DNA of 64,000 nucleotides, from NCBI RefSeq assembly GCF_024055725.1, contig NZ_JAMXMX010000002.1, positions 248,001-312,000 of the forward strand, read 5' to 3'. The notes beneath the pieces are model-generated. The model worked only from the letters and a program-made list of their open reading frames with translations. It made no database searches and had not been told where the DNA came from. The stretch is from Actinoallomurus spadix (GTDB lineage Bacteria > Actinomycetota > Actinomycetes > Streptosporangiales > Streptosporangiaceae). Below are positions 35,776-49,109 of the stretch, piece by piece; the first letter of the stretch is position 1, and each line of letters starts with the position of its first letter. Position numbers and translations under genes: made by a program.

Positions 35776-35979
35776 CCGCGCCGCACCGAGACGAATCCGC
35801 ACCGAGACGAATCCGCCCGAGTGTGGTTCGATCGCAGCAGCGACGCCTGCTCGTAGCGGCGATGGGACGGATCTATGACCACCTGGCGGAAGTCCGGCCA
35901 CAGCGGTGGCACCAGCGTTCAGTCCGACCGCGTTGAGGCGGCTCTCCTCGGGGCCGCCGGCCGGCGCGGCTGAAGCGCC

Positions 35980-36894
35980 GTGGGCGGGGCGTCGGTGCCG
36001 TTCCGGTATCGGTCGTTGGACGCCGACAGCGGCCGGTGGGACGGATTTCCGTTCCGGGACGGCGACATCGTGATCAGCACGCGGCCCAGGAGCGGGACCA
36101 CCTGGATGCAGATGATCTGCGCGCTGCTGATCTTCCAGACGCCGGAGCTCCCCGCTCCGCTGAGCCGGCTGTCACCGTGGCTCGATCACCTGACGATGCC
36201 GCGTGGCGAGGTGTACGCGCTGCTCGCGCGGCAACGGCATCGCCGGTTCATCAAGACGCATACACCGCTGGACGGTCTGCCCATCGATCGCCGCGTCACG
36301 TACGTCGTGACGGCTCGGCACCCGCTCGACCTGGCGGTGTCGCTCTACCACCACACCACGAACATCGACATCGCCCGGATGCGGGAGCTGACCGGCAACG
36401 CGTTGCCCACCGAGGCGTCGGCGGCACGCAGGACGTTGCGGGACTGGCTGCTCGCCTGGATCGGGCATGACACAGATCCGCGTACGAACCCGGACTCGTT
36501 GCCCGGGGTCATGCGGCACCTGAGTGACGCCTGGGCCAGGCGCGGTGCCGGCAACGTGGTGCTGATCCGCTATGACGACCTGTGCCGCGACCTGGAAGGT
36601 CGGATGCGCGGGCTCGCGGAGCGCCTCGGCCTGGCCGTGCCCGAGCCCGTCTGGCCGGGGCTGGTGCGGGCGGCGACCTTCACGCGGATGCGGGCCGGCG
36701 CCGATCGGTACGTCCCCGGCGACGGGATCATCAAGAACGACACGTCGTTCTTCCGCCGTGGCAGTCCCGGTGCCGGCGAGGAGATCCTCACCGGCGAGGA
36801 GATCGCCCGCTATCACACCCGCGTGGCGGCACTGGCACCGCCGGACCTCGTCGCCTGGCTCCACGCGCCCGGCGGACCGTCTGCACGGCCCTGA
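35980..36894 (+). CDS. Sulfotransferase
   Basis: A 304-residue PAPS-dependent sulfotransferase. VISTRPRSGTTWMQ is the 5'-phosphosulfate loop. RFIKTHTPLDGLP follows, with YVVTARHPLDLAVSLYHH carrying the 3'-phosphate-binding Arg/Ser, and NVVLIRYDDLCRDLEGRM lies before the C-terminal helix. FFRRGSPG near the end completes the PAPS site. The acceptor is unknown. It is convergent with the LanM gene 91 bp away, which makes a tailoring role possible but unproven. GTG 35980 is the likely start. Confidence 0.85.
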   Translation: MGGASVPFRYRSLDADSGRWDGFPFRDGDIVISTRPRSGTTWMQMICALLIFQTPELPAPLSRLSPWLDHLTMPRGEVYALLARQRHRRFIKTHTPLDGLPIDRRVTYVVTARHPLDLAVSLYHHTTNIDIARMRELTGNALPTEASAARRTLRDWLLAWIGHDTDPRTNPDSLPGVMRHLSDAWARRGAGNVVLIRYDDLCRDLEGRMRGLAERLGLAVPEPVWPGLVRAATFTRMRAGADRYVPGDGIIKNDTSFFRRGSPGAGEEILTGEEIARYHTRVAALAPPDLVAWLHAPGGPSARP

Positions 36895-36985: not shown

Positions 36986-39859
36986 TCAGTCCGGCTTCAG
37001 AATCGATGGCAGGTCGCTGTCGGGGTGTAGCCGCAACAACTGGTAGGCCATACCGCCCAGGCCGGCGAGCAGGCCCGGGGAGTACGCGTCCCGCGCCAGT
37101 CCGCTGACCGGCCCGTTGTCCTCGATGCTGGTGATGATCCGCGCGTCGAGCCCGAGCCGGTCCAGTCCGGCCGGGGCACGGCCGAGTGCCAGGGCGTCGT
37201 CGAACAGTTCCCAGCAGCCCAGGTCACCGTGGCACAGAGTGTGGTTCCAATCGAACCCGCGCCGGGCGGCGAGGTCGGCCGCCCGCCCCACCAGGTCGGC
37301 CGCGGCGTCCCAGCCTCGGCGCGTCAGGTCGGCGGCGGCGATTCCGATGCCGACGGCGCCGTGACACCAGGCGGCCGAGAACACGTCCTCGTCGGGGTCG
37401 CGGAGGTCGACCCAGCCGCCGGCGGCCGGGTCGTAGAGGGTCTCCTCGAAGGCGAACGCCGCCCGCGCGGCGGCGGCGAACCGCGTGTCACCGGTGGCCG
37501 ACGCGAGCCGCGCCAGGGCCCACCCGATGCCGGTGACGCCGTGGGCGAAGCCGCCGATGCCGTCGGGCCACTGCGGGGAGGGCCAGCACAGGGTCCCCGC
37601 CTTGTGCCGGGCGTCGGCGATGAGCCGCTCGCCGATGACGGCGGCCTGGCGTGTCCAACGCTCCTCGCCGGTCACGGCGGCGAGCCGGAGCAGCGGCACG
37701 ATCGCCCCGGCCATCCCGGTCAGCACGTCGAACCGGTCGTCGGCCGCGACCGCCTCGGGCAGCAGCGCGGCGAGCGCGCGGGCGCGGTCCAGGCCGTCCG
37801 GACCGGCCGCCTCCCAGGAGTGCAACGTCAGCCACGCCCAGATCTGCGACCCGAGCCCGATGTACCCGCCGGGCGGCGGTGGGCGCAACCGGGCCTCCGC
37901 CCGGCGTACGGCGGCGTCCTTGTCCTCCGCCGCGCGTACGGTGCGCAGCACGTCTTCGAGCAGCCCGGCCATGCCGTCGACGTCGTCCGCCCGGCCGGCC
38001 GCGCTCTCCCGACGGTACGCGGCGAGTAGGACGGCCACTCCGGACAGGCCGCCGTAGGTGTCCGGTCCCAGCGGTTGCACGGCCCAGCCGGCCGGGCCGA
38101 GCACCGGTGCGATCCACGTGACGGTGCCGTCCTCGGCGCGGAGCGCGGCGTCGCGGAGCTCGCGGATCAGCGCTGCGGCGATCCGGCGCCGCCTGCGGTC
38201 CAGGTCGTCGCGGCGTGGCCGGTCCGCCCTCATCCGCCGATCGCCCGGCAGCCAGCCGTCGTTGAGGTACGCGCTGACCAGCGTCGCCCGGATGACCTGG
38301 GTGTCCAGGCGGAGGTCCGCCGTACGCCACCGGTCCAGTGCAGCCGCCACGAGGTCCTGTTCGGGCAGGTACGCGGTGCCGCGCGGGCCGTCCAGCCGCC
38401 CGCGACGGGGTGTGGTGGAAAAGAACGGGACGTCCCCGTCGAGCAGGTCGGCGACCTCCGCCGCGACGACCTCCGGGTCGCCCGGTGCGCCGGGAACGTG
38501 CTCGGCCATCGTGGTCAGCAGGTCCACGGCGCGGTCCACGGCGGCGCCGGGGCCGTGCAGGGACACTGGATGCCACAGCATCCGTGCGATCTCGGTGTAC
38601 GCCTCGGTGGAACGCAGGACGACGCGGATCGGGCAGTCGGCGAACCGGGAGAGGAGCGGTTCCAGGCCGCCGGTCCGGTCCAGGGACCGCAAGGCGTCCG
38701 TCGCCTCGGCGAAGCCGTCGAGGACGCGTTCCCAGTGGTCGGCGAGGACCGGGACGGGGCTGGGGTGACTTGCGCCGATCGCCGGCTCGACCGGCCGGGT
38801 GCCGATGCGGGCCTGGTCGCTGCCGGCGTCGACGATGACCGGCAACTCGGGGAACGGCTGCTCGCCGGGCAGCGACCCCGCCGCGGAGGCGTCGACGCCG
38901 CGCCAACCGAGGGCGGTGCCCCGGTTGGGCAGCATTCCGGTCCGCAGGACGGTCGCGCCCACCAGGGCGCGGGCCCGGTCGGGGGCGAGCCCGAGCCCGG
39001 ACGGGGAAATCGGGTGCACCGGGGTGAACAGCGTCTCGCAGTCCACCACGACCGGCACCGGTCCGCAGGCGATGACGTTCTCGGCGTGCAGGTCGCTGCC
39101 GCCGAGCAGCCGCATGACGCCCAGCCAGTGCCCGATGCCGCGGTAGAAGGCGGACAGCTCCCCGGCGTCCGCGCAGTACCGGTGGGTCACGAACTCGGCC
39201 CAGCCGTATCCGTCGCGCGGCACAACGCGGGGGACCCGGATCCGTACGTTCTCCGGGACGTCGCGGAAGACCTCGGCCAGCGTCGCGCCGAGCACGGCGT
39301 CCACGCTCATCGATCGCGGCTTGTAGACGACCGTGCCGGCGCCGAACTGCAGAACGGCCACGGTCTGGCCGGATCGATGGCTGTCCCCGGCGCCGAAGGT
39401 GACCCGGGACAGCGGGCCGGGGTCCGCGCCGAGCAGCCGCGCCGGCACGTCCCGGTCCGCGGCGAGCCGGCGGGCCAGCGTCAGTGCCGCGGAACTCCGC
39501 CCCGACAGCATCGTGCGCAGCCGGGACAGCAGCGGAGGGTAATGCGCGGTCAGCGATTCCCAGTACCGCGGAGACGACGACAGCTCCGCGAATTCGGCCC
39601 AGCGCGCGGCGGGATCACCGGCCGTCAGACGGCCGGTGATCCGCGCGGCGTTCAATTCCAGGATGAGGACGCGGGCGACCTTCCGGTGGGCCGTCTCGTA
39701 CAGCGCGGTCGCCGTGCCGTTCCGGATCGCCGTCCGTTCGGATTCGGCGAGGCCCGGGACGGAGGCGAGGCGTTCCGACAGTTGGTCCAGGGTCGGTTCG
39801 ACCAGGCAGCGCAGCGACCGGGTGAGGTCACCGACGGCGGCACCCGTGCCGGTGCTCAC
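36986..39859 (-). CDS. Class II lanthipeptide synthetase (LanM)
   Basis: A 957-residue bifunctional enzyme. The N-terminal dehydratase half (residues about 90-550) has VVYKPRSMSVDAVLG, GWAEFVTHRYCADAG and GGSDLHAENVIA, the phosphorylation/elimination site. The LanC-like cyclase half (about 620-957) has the zinc ligands at WCHGAVGIG (near residue 832) and LCHGDLG (near 874). The order and size match LanM. It installs dehydrated residues and thioether rings in the small peptide encoded just upstream. No LanT transporter is adjacent. GTG 39859 is the likely start, 18 bp after the precursor stop. Confidence 0.93.
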   Translation of the reverse strand: MSTGTGAAVGDLTRSLRCLVEPTLDQLSERLASVPGLAESERTAIRNGTATALYETAHRKVARVLILELNAARITGRLTAGDPAARWAEFAELSSSPRYWESLTAHYPPLLSRLRTMLSGRSSAALTLARRLAADRDVPARLLGADPGPLSRVTFGAGDSHRSGQTVAVLQFGAGTVVYKPRSMSVDAVLGATLAEVFRDVPENVRIRVPRVVPRDGYGWAEFVTHRYCADAGELSAFYRGIGHWLGVMRLLGGSDLHAENVIACGPVPVVVDCETLFTPVHPISPSGLGLAPDRARALVGATVLRTGMLPNRGTALGWRGVDASAAGSLPGEQPFPELPVIVDAGSDQARIGTRPVEPAIGASHPSPVPVLADHWERVLDGFAEATDALRSLDRTGGLEPLLSRFADCPIRVVLRSTEAYTEIARMLWHPVSLHGPGAAVDRAVDLLTTMAEHVPGAPGDPEVVAAEVADLLDGDVPFFSTTPRRGRLDGPRGTAYLPEQDLVAAALDRWRTADLRLDTQVIRATLVSAYLNDGWLPGDRRMRADRPRRDDLDRRRRRIAAALIRELRDAALRAEDGTVTWIAPVLGPAGWAVQPLGPDTYGGLSGVAVLLAAYRRESAAGRADDVDGMAGLLEDVLRTVRAAEDKDAAVRRAEARLRPPPPGGYIGLGSQIWAWLTLHSWEAAGPDGLDRARALAALLPEAVAADDRFDVLTGMAGAIVPLLRLAAVTGEERWTRQAAVIGERLIADARHKAGTLCWPSPQWPDGIGGFAHGVTGIGWALARLASATGDTRFAAAARAAFAFEETLYDPAAGGWVDLRDPDEDVFSAAWCHGAVGIGIAAADLTRRGWDAAADLVGRAADLAARRGFDWNHTLCHGDLGCWELFDDALALGRAPAGLDRLGLDARIITSIEDNGPVSGLARDAYSPGLLAGLGGMAYQLLRLHPDSDLPSILKPD

Positions 39860-39877
39860 GGCCCGTGTCCAGGAGGT

Positions 39878-40069
39878 TCAGCAGCAGGGGTGAGTGTGCG
39901 AGGCGCTGCACGCGCTGCAGACGCCCGTGTAGCTGGTCTCGGCCTCGATGAGGTCCGCCTCCGCGAACGCCCCGGAGGCGTAGAGGGGGCCGGCGGGGTT
40001 GTCGGGGCCCGCGCTGGTCCGCCACTGCTCGGCGGTGCGTTCGGCGAGCTGTAGTTCCTGAACGGTCAT
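39878..40069 (-). CDS. Lanthipeptide precursor peptide (LanA)
   Basis: A 63-residue peptide. The acidic leader (residues 1-44, with AGPDNPAGPLYASG and AEADLIEAE) is followed by a Ser/Thr/Cys-rich core of about 19 residues. The core holds four Cys (51, 54, 62, 63) and seven Ser/Thr (45, 46, 48, 52, 55, 57, 59) with the ending CC. No GG/GA double-glycine site is present; the boundary after EAE at 44 is inferred. ATG 40069 has GGAGG 8 nt upstream. It lies 18 bp upstream of lanM on the same strand. Confidence 0.85.
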   Translation of the reverse strand: MTVQELQLAERTAEQWRTSAGPDNPAGPLYASGAFAEADLIEAETSYTGVCSACSASHTHPCC

Positions 40070-40287
40070 GGGGGTGCCTCCGGGTGGCAGTGCGCCGATC
40101 GATCGGATCAGCGATTCGGCTCATCGTGCCATCGCCGGAAAGCGCCACAAACTAACTCAAAAGGACCCGCAACCATCCTCGGCGGTAATGCTTGACTGTC
40201 CATTCCGGTACGCCCATTGACGGTTCGCTGGTTTTGGGGTGGCATCGAACCTTCATAAAGAGCCGACGTACGAAAAGGGCGTCCGCT

Positions 40288-41205
40288 TCAGGCCGGAATG
40301 GCGTAAAGAATCAGCGGGAGGACGGCGACGAGGGTCGCGGCGGCGAGCATCGCGCCGCGGAGCGGGCGCGGCAGCGGCGCGGGGGCCAGCAGTCGCCGGA
40401 CGCGGATGAGGATGGGGCTCGCCTCGGCGGCCAGGGCGTCGCCGGCGACACCGAGGGTGCCGGCCGGGGTCGGGGCCGGACGGGCGGCGGCGAAGCGCAG
40501 CAGGGCGGTGGCCAGCTCCTTGGCCGGGCGGTGGCGGCGGGCGCGGTCGTCGGCGGCCATCTCGACGAGCAGCTCGACGGCGTCGAGGGTGCGGGTGATG
40601 ATGCGGGCCTGCGGGAAGATCCGGCGCAGCGAGGTGAAGGGCAGCAGCACCAGGTCATGGCGTTCGCGGACGTGGGCGCGCTCGTGGTCGAGGACGGCCG
40701 CCAGCTCGTACGGGCCGAGGAGCTTCAGGGTTCCGGCGCTGACGACGACCTTGGGCGAGCGGACGCCGGGGACGCAGTACGCGGCGGCCGCCGGGTGGTC
40801 GAGGACGAGCGTGCCGGGCATCTCCGGGTCGCCGTGGGCCACGAGGGCCAGGAGGGTGCGGTGCCGCCGCCGCGCGCGTACGACGCCGGCGATCGCGGCC
40901 AGCAGCATGGCGATCAGCATCAGCATGAAGGTGAGACCGGCGGCGACCGAGGCGACGCGGATCGGCGACAGGGCGTGCGGGTCCGTGAAGAAGCGGATGA
41001 CGCCGCCGATGACGCCCTGGCCGTACGGGGCCACGCCGAACCCGAGCAGAGTGCCGATGGAGGCCAGGCCCCAGGCGAGGCCGAGGGCCTGCCAGAGGAA
41101 GATCGCGGTGCGCGGCGTCCGCCACGTCCAGCGGGCGCGCGTCAGCCGGTGGGCGCCGAACGCGCTGCCGGCTGCCACCAGGGCGAGTAGGGCCGTGCCG
41201 GTCAT
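40288..41205 (-). CDS. M56-family membrane metallopeptidase (BlaR1/HtpX-like)
   Basis: A 305-residue protein. There are four hydrophobic segments, near residues 4-22, 30-55, 85-110 and 285-305. The zinc motif HERAH (HExxH, in AVLDHERAHVRE) is followed by a second helix and DDRARRHRPAKEL. It has no BlaR1-type sensor domain, so it resembles the short M56 proteins paired with BlaI repressors in actinomycetes. It could cleave the repressor, a leader peptide, or another membrane protein. It is 6 bp downstream of blaI and 218 bp upstream of the lanthipeptide precursor. Confidence 0.85.
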   Translation of the reverse strand: MTGTALLALVAAGSAFGAHRLTRARWTWRTPRTAIFLWQALGLAWGLASIGTLLGFGVAPYGQGVIGGVIRFFTDPHALSPIRVASVAAGLTFMLMLIAMLLAAIAGVVRARRRHRTLLALVAHGDPEMPGTLVLDHPAAAAYCVPGVRSPKVVVSAGTLKLLGPYELAAVLDHERAHVRERHDLVLLPFTSLRRIFPQARIITRTLDAVELLVEMAADDRARRHRPAKELATALLRFAAARPAPTPAGTLGVAGDALAAEASPILIRVRRLLAPAPLPRPLRGAMLAAATLVAVLPLILYAIPA

Positions 41206-41211
41206 CCCCGG

Positions 41212-41580
41212 TTATGTCCCTTCAACCTCGTCGAGTGCGCGGCGCAGCAGGTCGGCCTCGTCGCCGGAGACGGAGCGCGCGAAGTGCGCCAGCGCGGCGT
41301 CGCGGTCGCCCGTCATGTTCAGCGCCCCCAGCATGAGTTCGGCGACGTACGCCTCCTTCGTCGCTACCGGACGGTAGCGCCAGGCGCGGCCTTCCCTCTC
41401 GCGAACCAGGAAACCCTTCTTTGCGAGCCTGTCCAAAACGGTCATGACGGTGGTGTGCGCGAGGTCGCGGTCGTCCGCGAGAGCGCGGCCCACCTCACGG
41501 GCGGTCGCGCCGTTGTCCCGGTCCCACAGGACCTCCATGACCGTGCGTTCAAGCTCTCCAAGACCCTTCACGGAATGCAT
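41212..41580 (-). CDS. BlaI/MecI/CopY-family repressor
   Basis: A 122-residue winged-helix protein. LGELERTVMEVLWDRDNGATAREVGRALAD begins the DNA-binding domain, TVMTVLDRLAKKGFLVREREGRAWRYRPV contains the recognition helix and wing, and the C-terminal helices dimerise. The ATG at 41580 is favoured over an upstream ATG at 41631 because it has GGAGATAGG just upstream and matches the family start. A double palindrome at 41591-41615 lies immediately upstream, which is the expected operator position. Confidence 0.92.
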   Translation of the reverse strand: MHSVKGLGELERTVMEVLWDRDNGATAREVGRALADDRDLAHTTVMTVLDRLAKKGFLVREREGRAWRYRPVATKEAYVAELMLGALNMTGDRDAALAHFARSVSGDEADLLRRALDEVEGT

Positions 41581-44632: not shown

Positions 44633-44876
44633 GTCAGCCCGCTTCCGCGGTCGCGTCTGGCGTCCGGCCCGCCCAGAGCGATCGACCACTAGTCGTGACG
44701 AGTCCGATCGCCATCGGTGACCTTCCTCTCCATGCCTCGCCTCCCGTTCGTTACATCGGCATGAACCGGAGATCACCGGGCACTGTTACCAAGGTGGATC
44801 TTGGTCCGGGATCGCGTGTGCGAATTCCTCATCCGTGCGGCGGGCCAATTGTGCGTGAGAATGCGCGAAGGGAGTG

Positions 44877-45233
44877 GTGACCACAATGAATCACTCTGCA
44901 AACCACCTCACGATGAGTACCTCCGAGTTGCGCAGGCTCCGGCAGATGTACGCGGACGCCGTCCGGCAACTGGAGGAGGGGCACCAGGCCTCGGCCGTCC
45001 AGGCGGGGGACATCAGCCAGGCCTATGGGGGCTACGAGGAATGCGTGTGGGCCGCGGATCAGGTCGCCGGCCTGCGGGATGACTTCAACGGGCTCATCAA
45101 GAACGTCCTGCTCGAAGATCTGCGGCTGATCGCCGAGCGTGCGGGGGTCTCGGCCGGTATCTACGGCGCCGCCGAGGAGGCGGGTGCGGAGGCGGCCGGA
45201 GGACGGCTCCCGTCAGGGATCGCGGAGGTGTAA
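44877..45233 (+). CDS. Small helical protein, type VII secretion (ESX) associated
   Basis: A 118-residue alpha-helical protein with no known family. It has LRRLRQMYADAVRQLEEGHQ, a DISQAYGGYEECVWAADQ region, then RDDFNGLIKNVLLEDLRLIAERAG. The size, helical content and location 45 bp upstream of a WXG-type protein gene resemble EsxA/EspC-like partner genes. GTG 44877 is preferred because GAAGGGA lies about 4 nt upstream; GTG 44874 and ATG 44886 are alternatives. Confidence 0.55.
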   Translation: MTTMNHSANHLTMSTSELRRLRQMYADAVRQLEEGHQASAVQAGDISQAYGGYEECVWAADQVAGLRDDFNGLIKNVLLEDLRLIAERAGVSAGIYGAAEEAGAEAAGGRLPSGIAEV

Positions 45234-45278
45234 TCCCCGGACCCACGGTGCGAGAGCTGAGAGCGGAAACGCCGTTCC

Positions 45279-48200
45279 ATGAACATTAACGAGCCCATAG
45301 CCGAGACGTTGACCTCGGGCGTGCTCGGGCTGCTGCATGCGGTCGGCATCGACCTTCCCGGGCTCGGTGATCCGGTGGCGCAGCGCCGGCAGGCGGCCTC
45401 CCTCCGCGGCTGCGCGGCGTCGCTCCGGCAGGGCTGCGTCTCGGTCGCACTCTCGCAGCAGAACCAGAAGTGGTCGGGTGCCGCCCATGATGTCCAGCAG
45501 CAGAAGGCCGGCAATTCGTATGCGCGGCTCATAGCCAGCGCGGAGCTGATGGACCAGGCGGCCGAGAAGCTCGACAAGCACGCCGAGTTCTGGGAGAAGT
45601 TCATCAAAGAGCTCTTCCAGCTCCTGCTCGAGCTCTACGAGATGATCAGGATCGGCATGCTCTTCTCGTGGGCGACGGGACTCGTGGGCACCGCGATCTT
45701 CGAAGCCCGGCTGGGCGTCACCCTGCAGCGCGTCTTCGAGGTCATCCGCGCCGGGAAGCTGGCCGTCGAGGAGTTCGGCAAGTCGATCCAGGCCATGCGG
45801 GTGGCGACCGCCGGGATCGTCAACCCGATCCGCCTCGCGGGCTGGTACATAGAGCGTTCTCCCTCCATGGCCCGGTACGTCGCGGAAGGCATGATCGGCG
45901 GCGATATCGCCAAGCTCCTGAGCGGCCAGGACCCGTGGAACCGCCAGACCCAGTGGGGGATGTTCGAGGGCAACGTCCTCGGCATCATGATGGGTTTCAA
46001 GATGGGCGACCTGGAGGAGCGGGCCGCCGCGCGGTTCGTCCCTCTCGCGAAGTTCAAAAGCAAGATCACCGGCAAGGAGATCGAGGACATCCTCGATCCG
46101 AAGTACCTCTACAAGCTCGAACCGAAAGATCTCACCACCCGCGCCGCCACCGGGGAGGCGAAGGCCGCCTCGGAGACCAACCTGGCGTCCCACACGACTC
46201 AGCAGCCCGCACAGGCGGCGTCCCGCACCGGGCCGCCCCACGCGGGGAGCGGAGATCCCGCGGCGGGAGGCACGACGGCCGTACCGCCCACGACGACGGC
46301 CGGTGCGAACACCGCGCGCTCAACCGGCGGCGGATCGACCCGGGTGGCCGGCGCAGGCAAGCCGGCGGCGGCTCATCCGGATCCGGCGGTTACGAGTGGT
46401 GGTAAGCCGGCCGTGGCCCACCCGGATCCGGCGGTTACGAGTGGCGGTAAGCCGACGGCGGCTCATCCGGATCCGGCGGCCAGCGGCGGCAGGCCGACCG
46501 GTGCTCATCCGGCCGGTGACCCGGGGGCCGCTGGTGGAGGGAGGCCTGCCGGAGCGGCGGGTCACCCGGATCCGGGCGCGCCTCCCGCCGGTTCCGGCAC
46601 GACCACCACGGCGGGCGGCGCCTCGGTTGCGCATCCGGCGGGTGGGAACACCGGCGGCGCCGCGGCCTCGCACTCCGGGAGCGGCGCGGCGGCGTCCCAC
46701 TCCGCCGGCGGTACCGGCGGCACGGCGGAGGAGCGGCTCGAACGCGCCCGGTATCTCCGCGACCAGCTCGAGGAGCATCAGCGGAACTACTCCGAAGCGA
46801 TCCATAACTACAAGAAGGAGCTCGAGGAACTCGGTGACGTGATTCCCGAGCGGACCGAGGGCCTCCTCAAGGTGAAGGCCGGTTCCGGGGACCTGACCCT
46901 CTCCGAGGCCGAGCAGAAGCTGACGAGCGCGCAGCACGACCTCGACGCCAGGCGCGCGCTGACCAAGCAGGCGGAGGCGGACGCCAAGGCCGCGTCCCAG
47001 CAGGAGGCCGCGGCCAAGCAGGAGGCGCTGAAGGCGGCACAGGCCGAACAGCGCAAGGCCGAAGAGGAAGTGCGAAAGGCCCAGGACATCCGGGACGCCG
47101 CGCAGCGGCACGAGGAGGTCGTGGCCAAGCACAAGACGGTCACCGAGTGGAAGAACAAGGCGGACGACGAGCTCAATCACGTCCGTGATCTGCGCAAAGA
47201 GGTCAACAAGGCGTTCCCCGAGGCCAGTGAACAGGCCGAGCGGGAGCTGGCGCACGCGCGGCAGGAGCTGACGCACGCGACGAGGGAGAGGGAGGCCGCC
47301 GAGAGCCGGGCGCAGAATCAGCGCGCCGCCCACCGCGTGGCGGACAGGCAGCTGAAGGACGCCGAGGCGACGGCCTCACAGGCCGAGCGGACCTTCCAGG
47401 ACACGGCGGCTCGCCGCCAGCAGGCGGCCGGGGACTCCGCCGACGCCTCCGCGGTCGCGAGCCAGAAGGCGGTCGACGCGTCGGTCAAGGCGCGGCATGC
47501 CGATGACCTCGCGGCGGAGGCCGAGCGCAGGAGACAGACGTTGCGCGAGGCTCGGGAGCGCCTCAGCCAGGCGGAGCAGAACGGCGGGAACGCCAGGGCC
47601 CTCCGAGGGGAGGTCCAGCGCGCGGAGCAGGACGTGGCCGCCGCCGAGTCGCAGGCCGACAAGGCGAGGCGTGAGGCGGAGGCCGCGCGGGCCGAGCACC
47701 TTCGTGCCGAAGACGCGGCGCACAGCGCCCGGGCGAGGGCGCAACGGCTGAGCGAGGACGAGAATCACGCCCAGGCTCAGGCTCAGGCGGCGCAGCGCAA
47801 GGTGGAGGAGGCGGCGGGGAAGGCCAAGGTCACCGAGACTCAGGCCAAGCAGGCCGATGAGGCACTCGCGCGGGCGCGTGAGCAGGAGCGGAGGATGGAG
47901 GATGAGGTCCGTCAGAGGACCGATCTGAGCCGGGAGGCGCATCAGGAGGCCAAGAGCCGGTTCACCCACTCTCGCTCGGTCAGTTCGATGTGGCACTCGA
48001 CCGCGGACGTCGAGAAGAAGTTGTTCGCCGTGCAGAGCCGCCGGGAGACGGTCTACAACGAGCTCATCCGGAGCACGTTCAACTCGGCCATGATCAATCT
48101 CACCTTCGACCTGTCCGCGAACGCCATTCACAAGCTCGGCCTGCCGAGCTGGCTCATGATGGGCATGCCGGAGAAGGGCTGGAAGGAGATCGCGCTCGAT

Positions 48201-49109
48201 TCGGTCGTCGGCGGTATTACGTTCGGTAGCCGTGAATACCTGCGGCACCAGGTCATCTCGGGTGACACCAGCGCGGTCGGCAACGCCGAACGCCTCCCCG
48301 GTGGACCGCTCCATAATCCCGATCCCGCCCACATCGGCTCGGACGGTAAGCCGGTGGACCCGAAGAGCCTCGCCCACCGGGACCCCGAGGCTGCGAAGGC
48401 GCGGTCAGGCCGCTGGAATCCGCCCGCTTCGGCGGCCATCTTCGCCCCGCCGAAGCCGCGGGTGCTGTTCCGGTCCTTCGGGGACTTCATGTACACCCGG
48501 AAGACGATCCCGTTGAAGATTCCGGGCCTGGGCGGGCATTCGGTCCCGCTGCCGCGACTCGGCATGTTCCCGGCGGCGCACCGGAACTCCGCGCAGGACG
48601 CCCCCGCGGCCGTCCGTTCCGGCGCGGAGATGTTCCTCGGCGCCATCAACAACGGCGGCGAGGGACTCGTCAACGGCTTCATCAAGAACAACATCAAGGA
48701 ACTGCTCAACATCACCCCGCCGGCGGCATCGACTCCGCAGCCCGCGCCCGCCCAGCCGTCCCCGTCTCCATCCCATCCGTCTCCGTCTCCGACGTCTCCG
48801 TCGCCGGCGCCGCCGTCCCACTCACCGTCTCCCTCGCCGAGTCCGAGTGGGCCGCCCGACAGCACCTCACCGTCCCCCGCCCCGCCGTCCCCGACCCCTT
48901 CGGCGCCGACGGTCGGCGGCGGTCACGTCACCGTTGGCCCCTCCGCGCCGACGCTGTGGGACATCGCCGTCGATGTGTACGGGGACGGCAGCAAGTGGGT
49001 GGACATCTGGCACGCCAATCCCGATATCAGCGATCCGTCTCAACTAAAGAACGGGATGAAGCTGGAGCTTCCTGAGCTCCCGAGCCCGTCGGCCCGAGCG
49101 CACCGGTGA
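45279..49109 (+). CDS. Giant multidomain protein: WXG-type N-terminus, repeat linker, coiled coil, LysM
   Basis: A 1276-residue protein. Residues about 1-300 are helical, with a W-S-G motif at 65-67 (KWSGAAHD) and hydrophobic helices. Residues 310-480 form a low-complexity Ala/Gly/Pro linker with HPDP repeats. Residues 483-895 form a long coiled coil (LDARRALTKQAEADAKAASQ type). Residues about 900-1145 are a globular region of unknown fold. A Pro/Ser-rich linker (1147-1213) leads to a C-terminal LysM at about 1216-1266 (APTLWDIAVDVYGDGSKWVDIWHANP). No signal peptide is seen. It fits a type VII-secreted cell-wall protein. Confidence 0.75.
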   Translation: MNINEPIAETLTSGVLGLLHAVGIDLPGLGDPVAQRRQAASLRGCAASLRQGCVSVALSQQNQKWSGAAHDVQQQKAGNSYARLIASAELMDQAAEKLDKHAEFWEKFIKELFQLLLELYEMIRIGMLFSWATGLVGTAIFEARLGVTLQRVFEVIRAGKLAVEEFGKSIQAMRVATAGIVNPIRLAGWYIERSPSMARYVAEGMIGGDIAKLLSGQDPWNRQTQWGMFEGNVLGIMMGFKMGDLEERAAARFVPLAKFKSKITGKEIEDILDPKYLYKLEPKDLTTRAATGEAKAASETNLASHTTQQPAQAASRTGPPHAGSGDPAAGGTTAVPPTTTAGANTARSTGGGSTRVAGAGKPAAAHPDPAVTSGGKPAVAHPDPAVTSGGKPTAAHPDPAASGGRPTGAHPAGDPGAAGGGRPAGAAGHPDPGAPPAGSGTTTTAGGASVAHPAGGNTGGAAASHSGSGAAASHSAGGTGGTAEERLERARYLRDQLEEHQRNYSEAIHNYKKELEELGDVIPERTEGLLKVKAGSGDLTLSEAEQKLTSAQHDLDARRALTKQAEADAKAASQQEAAAKQEALKAAQAEQRKAEEEVRKAQDIRDAAQRHEEVVAKHKTVTEWKNKADDELNHVRDLRKEVNKAFPEASEQAERELAHARQELTHATREREAAESRAQNQRAAHRVADRQLKDAEATASQAERTFQDTAARRQQAAGDSADASAVASQKAVDASVKARHADDLAAEAERRRQTLREARERLSQAEQNGGNARALRGEVQRAEQDVAAAESQADKARREAEAARAEHLRAEDAAHSARARAQRLSEDENHAQAQAQAAQRKVEEAAGKAKVTETQAKQADEALARAREQERRMEDEVRQRTDLSREAHQEAKSRFTHSRSVSSMWHSTADVEKKLFAVQSRRETVYNELIRSTFNSAMINLTFDLSANAIHKLGLPSWLMMGMPEKGWKEIALDSVVGGITFGSREYLRHQVISGDTSAVGNAERLPGGPLHNPDPAHIGSDGKPVDPKSLAHRDPEAAKARSGRWNPPASAAIFAPPKPRVLFRSFGDFMYTRKTIPLKIPGLGGHSVPLPRLGMFPAAHRNSAQDAPAAVRSGAEMFLGAINNGGEGLVNGFIKNNIKELLNITPPAASTPQPAPAQPSPSPSHPSPSPTSPSPAPPSHSPSPSPSPSGPPDSTSPSPAPPSPTPSAPTVGGGHVTVGPSAPTLWDIAVDVYGDGSKWVDIWHANPDISDPSQLKNGMKLELPELPSPSARAHR
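46360..46500 (+). repeat. In-frame tandem repeats (GKPAAAHPDPAVTSG type)
   Basis: Units of about 48 bp encode repeated GKPxxAHPDPAxxSG blocks in the linker of the giant protein; the first two are almost identical. Repeat copy-number change is a plausible source of strain variation. Confidence 0.65.

Follow-up and report, generated by a model that had tools for sequence, protein, structure and literature searches.

A DUF6229 precursor gene and an adjoining LanM gene in Actinoallomurus spadix, very probably a two-gene class II lanthipeptide cassette

The window analyzed here is a 64,000-nucleotide stretch of the genome of Actinoallomurus spadix (assembly GCF_024055725.1, contig NZ_JAMXMX010000002.1, positions 248,001 to 312,000). 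On its minus strand lie two adjoining genes, lanA and lanM. The gene lanA (39878..40069; start ATG) encodes a DUF6229 precursor peptide of 63 aa, and lanM (36986..39859; start GTG) encodes a class II lanthipeptide synthetase of 957 aa. Both frames are complete, and 18 bases separate the stop of lanA from the start of lanM. A ribosome-binding site (GGAGG) is found 7 bases 5' of the lanA ATG, near the lanA end of a 218-bp intergenic stretch (40070..40287, minus strand) that follows an M48/M56-type peptidase gene and is presumed to hold lanA's own promoter. The peptide matches PF19740 (DUF6229) over residues 9-63 (E 1.4e-16; 60.6 bits, cut-off 25) and has no NCBIfam match at E<=1. LanM carries a DUF4135 domain (PF13575, E 1.9e-89) and a LANC_like domain (PF05147, E 1.7e-36, 126 bits), and it scores 539.7 bits against NCBIfam TIGR03897 (cut-off 304). 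The protein has its dehydratase motifs and the two CHG motifs of the cyclase; in the alignment columns the zinc ligands are Cys-Cys-His and the catalytic positions are intact. The locus combines the features by which class II lanthipeptide systems are recognized, namely a LanM with a DUF4135 dehydratase and a zinc LanC-like cyclase and an adjoining precursor with a core rich in Ser, Thr and Cys. The genome contains one DUF4135 gene and one DUF6229 match, and these are the two neighbors described here. A second precursor candidate (G000:C15) was rejected, as its match was weak (E 0.07) and it had no PF19740 match at E<=0.1.

The leader of the lanA peptide contains the motifs NPAGPL and FAEAD, and the core reads ...TSYTGVCSACSASHTHPCC. 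An earlier, sequence-only reading of this DNA had described a compact class II locus with a 63-residue precursor 18 bp upstream of LanM, and the frames, the spacing and the Pfam and TIGR03897 matches agree with it. It had also counted four Cys, a terminal CC and seven Ser/Thr in the core, which direct reading confirms if the core starts after ...EAE, and it had seen no GG in the leader, where direct reading likewise finds none. Its description of the precursor as new-looking did not hold, as the peptide belongs to a published family with one product solved by nuclear magnetic resonance (NMR; PMC9576775). The core was rightly called unlike the textbook lantibiotics, but that comparison overlooked the DUF6229 family. 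Membership in a known family with a described product had been named in advance as grounds for giving up the claim of novelty; this applies to the family, while for the exact core of the window no described product was found in the open-access literature.

Peptides of the DUF6229 family have already been published as class II lanthipeptide precursors (PMC9576775 and, for Lysobacter, the preprint PMC11451712). The best described is rhodanocin (LanII) of Dyella sp. 333MFSha, a DUF6229 peptide that was modified by its own LanM in E. coli (PMC9576775). Its product carries four dehydrations and three rings, mapped by NMR as Thr6-Cys11, Thr12-Cys23 and Cys8-Ser14, and the cut peptide showed weak activity (126 uM) against one species (PMC9576775). 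In the Lysobacter genomes examined in the preprint, DUF6229 peptides make up 21 of the 27 unique class II precursors; the precursors lie beside class II synthetases, as in the window, and fall into six families with apparently differing ring topologies and uncharacterized products (PMC11451712). The window shares with rhodanocin, whose host belongs to another phylum, the Pfam precursor family and the type of synthetase. Rhodanocin proper has a 23-residue core with three Cys, one of them C-terminal, and a possible GG before the core; the window core, with four Cys, a CC end and no GG, falls outside this group. The window pair adds one more member to the DUF6229 class II lanthipeptides and is ordinary in kind.

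The core was compared with 109 peptides that are distinct in their last 45 residues, collected from profile matches at E<=1e-5 together with 50 earlier peptides. A CC end with at most three residues after it is present in 102 of them, two have no Cys, and five end otherwise, four of these being from two Luteibacter loci and the fifth from a Luteimonas locus. When numbering starts behind the GG, two of the four Luteibacter peptides have all the rhodanocin positions (Thr6, Cys8, Cys11, Thr12, Ser14, Thr18 and Cys23); the other two match up to Ser14 and have their last Cys at 24. We infer this numbering from the Luteibacter peptides, which replaced the published rhodanocin sequence in the comparison. 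Matched through them, C-x2-C-[ST]-x-S in the window core would correspond to Cys8, Cys11, Thr12 and Ser14 of rhodanocin. The window's CSACSAS belongs to a CSxC[ST]xS group of eight peptides (8/109) from Catenulispora, Kitasatospora, Streptomyces and others, and the wider module C-x2,3-C-[ST]-x-[ST] occurs in 64 of the 109. Numbered from the T of TSYTG, the module C7-S-A-C10-S11-A-S13 would give a T4-to-C10 ring and a reversed C7-to-S13 ring, and alignment with the rhodanocin map makes both rings probable in the window core. The C-terminal Cys pair would form rings with S11 and possibly T15, and the product would have four rings at most and no more than seven dehydrations.

The pairing of the peptide with LanM is conserved well beyond the window. 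In searches of 394 genomes of the class and 341 of the family, DUF6229 was matched in 6 and 36, respectively, the window genome counted in each. Within the genus the window peptide is matched in one genome of eight, the window genome included, and none of the seven others has a PF19740 match. Of 38 loci (the window and 37 relatives), 37 have a LanM 3' of the DUF6229 peptide, at most 192 bp away. Conversely, a DUF6229-type peptide is encoded upstream on the same strand in all 80 LanM-selected loci of named genomes (weakest E 2.9e-8), a biased sample selected with LanM patterns built from DUF6229-linked LanMs. A LanM alignment scan of the named genomes confirmed 168 loci, of which these are the best 80, and 18 of the 80 lie on the same contigs as loci of the earlier set; the peptide profile used for the check was built from the earlier loci, excluding two peptides with NTR repeats that are described below. 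The frame is kept beside LanM in relatives, a point on which the sequence-only reading had staked its claim.

For comparisons of the synthetases, 98 distinct LanM loci were kept. Nineteen others were removed because a 600-base stretch of their LanM was identical to that of another locus, among them L046, whose genome differs from that of its merge partner; L071, in which no LanM was found, was removed as well. The window LanM is 44-60% identical to the other 97, and a canonical or Cys-free DUF6229 peptide adjoins 96 of these, such loci being in the set by selection. The hosts include Actinomycetota, Pseudomonadota (Dyella, Lysobacter, Luteibacter, Xanthomonas and others), Myxococcota, and metagenome-assembled genomes of Acidobacteria and Chthoniobacterales (Verrucomicrobia). 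In the LanM tree the window groups with three uncharacterized Catenulispora loci (L075, L079 and L081; support 0.967), whose LanMs are 54-57% identical to it. Their cores read CSSCTASRG[SG]QCC and have in common with the window CSxC[ST]xS and the CC end. Other loci of the family are organized differently. Seven tandem DUF6229 precursors with differing cores precede one LanM in L070 (G569:C23) and in L077 of Rhizohabitans arisaemae. In some loci, such as L013, L014 and those of Nonomuraea, the precursor is preceded by genes for a LuxR-type response regulator, divergently oriented (14 of 38 loci), and a histidine kinase (12 of 38), both types being read from the sequence; the window has neither.

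Lacticin 481 and mersacidin represent class II families with a LanT, the C39 peptidase-exporter. The window has their LanM chemistry in common, but its leader has no GG end and no C39 was found in its genome. The absence of an adjoining LanT or dedicated protease, which the sequence-only reading had pointed out, was borne out: homologues of the exporter of relatives are lacking in the 64-kb window at E<=1e-5, and a C39 peptidase was not detected in the genome (98.3% complete) at E<=0.01, in a search whose control was positive in 8 of 14 known genomes. A LanT-type system was found in neither the locus nor the genome, and within the limits of an assembly that is 98.3% complete C39-type processing is excluded. 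Across the family, 18 of 38 loci (tblastn) and 32 of the 98 distinct LanM loci, the latter across phyla, have a same-strand ABC exporter gene behind LanM. The other 66 of 98 are without it, including all Streptomyces, Sphaerisporangium and Streptosporangium loci in the set, although 11 of the 98 hold less than 1.9 kb behind LanM, too little to judge its absence. None of the three Catenulispora loci has a same-orientation family exporter behind LanM; the contigs of L079 and L081 end less than 0.5 kb from LanM, and L075 has an exporter homologue (39% identity) there on the opposite strand. Absence of the exporter is a recurrent state of the DUF6229 family and not unusual. A Pfam scan of three example exporters found ABC_tran and no C39 domain. 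The C39 protease LahT150 also failed to cut the rhodanocin precursor despite its possible double-Gly motif (PMC9576775). Because no C39 was found in the genome, unlinked cell proteins, rather than a C39 LanT, would carry out leader removal and export in trans.

Taken as a whole, the window locus is very likely a class II lanthipeptide cassette that consists of two genes and belongs to the DUF6229 family. We infer that the lanA peptide is the substrate of its neighbor: LanM would bind the DUF6229 leader, its DUF4135 domain would phosphorylate core Ser and Thr and eliminate the phosphate, and the zinc LanC-like domain would add Cys thiols to form thioether rings in a product that may have an antimicrobial or signaling role. 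Several points weigh against this interpretation or its details. One DUF6229 locus, L071 (G426:C289), has no adjoining LanM, and its genome, 81% complete, has no DUF4135 match. The LanM with the highest identity to that of the window comes from Lentzea (59.5%) and not from Catenulispora (54-57%), and the branches of the tree are long. The ring map template, rhodanocin, has one C-terminal Cys where the window has two, and the family covers several ring patterns according to the literature (PMC9576775 and PMC11451712), at least two groups being distinguished by the authors of PMC9576775. On its short contig, L071 encodes a peptide with a window-like core (CSICSAS..CC), and a nitrite/sulfite-reductase-like gene, read from the sequence by eye, stands where LanM would be expected.

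Other explanations of the locus were weighed against the two-gene cassette. Short frames are common in DNA of 70% GC, and the 63-aa frame could be a chance open reading frame beside an orphan LanM with its true precursor elsewhere; the DUF6229 match (E 1.4e-16) and the adjacency counts (37/38 and 80/80) refute this, and it is given almost no credence. A larger, self-contained system of four genes was also considered, in which the peptidase upstream would be the dedicated leader protease and the BlaI protein beside it the regulator. The peptidase gene (40288..41205) lies on the lanA strand, 218 bp upstream, and its product has an HExxH motif (read from the sequence); it is followed upstream by the gene of a BlaI/CopY-type repressor (41212..41577, minus strand; PF03965, E 2.9e-27) with which it is paired. 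The sequence-only reading had called this same-strand peptidase M56 and hinted at a role in leader removal. The peptidase is there, but it scores higher as M48 (2.8e-9, over the Pfam cut-off) than as M56 (5e-4, under it), and the hinted role is not supported by its distribution. Its orthologues (79-94% identity) stand side by side with BlaI (91-97%) in six of the seven other genus genomes, which have no DUF6229 peptide and, at E<=1e-6 within 15-20 kb of the pair, no lanA or lanM. In the other 117 loci (stretches of ~3-20 kb) neither protein has a match at E<=1e-4. The four-gene view is very improbable, and both genes, kept as a pair without lan genes, were rejected as cluster members. In the seventh genus genome (G006) the peptidase match is just 40% identical, and DUF4135 genes occur elsewhere in five of the six genomes with the pair. 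A convergent sulfotransferase gene (35980-36894), 91 bp from the LanM stop, was likewise rejected as a tailoring enzyme, being matched at E<=1e-4 in the window only among 118 loci.

It is somewhat less remote, and still unlikely, that the cassette is decaying, having lost its ABC exporter and yielding little or no exported product. An exporter directly behind LanM in 32 of 98 distinct loci and none in the window would fit such decay, as would a genus genome that retains just a 61-bp lanM relic at the same site. In the window, however, both reading frames are open, the catalytic residues and the ribosome-binding site are in place, and the 66 loci likewise without an exporter (with the 11 too short to tell) argue against it. 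The relic, in G003 (L194:8421-8481), is 85% identical to the 3' end of lanM over 61 bases (E 5.6e-14); it encodes 20 residues, 16 of them identical, in the orientation of the window lanM. It lies 1.3 kb from the peptidase gene, with another open frame between, and beyond it are two short matches to window 35801-35944. Because of this position and these flanking matches, the relic is taken to mark the window lanM site. In the other five genus genomes with the peptidase-BlaI pair, no such relic was detected at E<=1e-5. The simplest reading would be that the lan pair predates the split of G003 and the window species and later disappeared from G003; alternatively, the pair may have been gained and lost separately. 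Elsewhere in the window, 44874-49109 encodes what may be a type VII secretion substrate pair: an EspC-like small protein (just under the Pfam cut-off) and, after it, a protein of 1276 aa. By eye the larger protein shows charged, Pro/Ser-rich and coiled-coil-like stretches, and its C-terminal part gives a weak Phage_tail_X match that stays under the cut-off.

The NTR-repeat peptides form a branch of the family that is more surprising than the window locus. In L072 (6014-9626, minus strand) and L073 (9436-12523, plus strand), from genomes G511 and G510 of genus g7, taken as Nonomuraea, a DUF6229 leader (E 1.2e-8 and 7.3e-8, respectively) is fused to a core with 19 or 23 NTR repeats and no Cys. 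Full-length matches to the NTR precursor were found in G511 and G510 alone; matches occurred in 44 of 345 genomes of the order, mostly partial and on the repeats. A LanM gene lies 49 bp downstream of the precursor. The six dehydratase residues that were checked, invariant in 98 of 98 LanMs, are kept in these enzymes. Their zinc motifs are altered, with WCHG replaced by WAYG and, in L072, LCHG also by LAHG. The zinc ligands are Ala-Ala-His in L072 and, in L073, Ala before the contig ends; the other 96 of 98 LanMs have Cys-Cys-His. In the L072 LanM the LANC_like domain is matched weakly and only in part (46 bits over residues 802-981), where the window LanM reaches 126 bits. Within the set, the two loci whose substrate has lost its Cys are also the only two whose LanM has lost zinc ligands; because the two LanMs are sisters (support 1.0), this counts as one event and not two. 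The alignments suggest, at somewhat less than even chances, that this DUF6229-LanM branch became a maker of Cys-free dehydropeptides, its LanM reduced to a dehydratase by zinc-ligand replacement within the canonical clade. Such a LanM would dehydrate the Thr of the NTR units and give a linear peptide rich in dehydrobutyrine (Dhb) and Arg, without rings. The dehydrazole enzyme LanMbC differs in having a class III-type zinc-free cyclase (PMC10676384), whereas the NTR LanMs show ligand replacement in the canonical clade. A published count of predicted peptides that combine DUF4135 with an undefined cyclase triad gives 47 (PMC11251773). Cys-free precursors would have been missed by a large precursor survey because it discarded all frames without Cys (PMC7268733).

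These results sharpen the question of how the leader is removed when a genome has no detectable C39 peptidase. The NTR branch would be a natural test of how dehydration and cyclization separate in LanM. The DUF6229 family emerges as a precursor-LanM cassette of wide distribution, accompanied in some loci by an exporter (C39-free in the three examples scanned), and the window adds an uncharacterized core to a family that is still labeled "unknown function" in Pfam.

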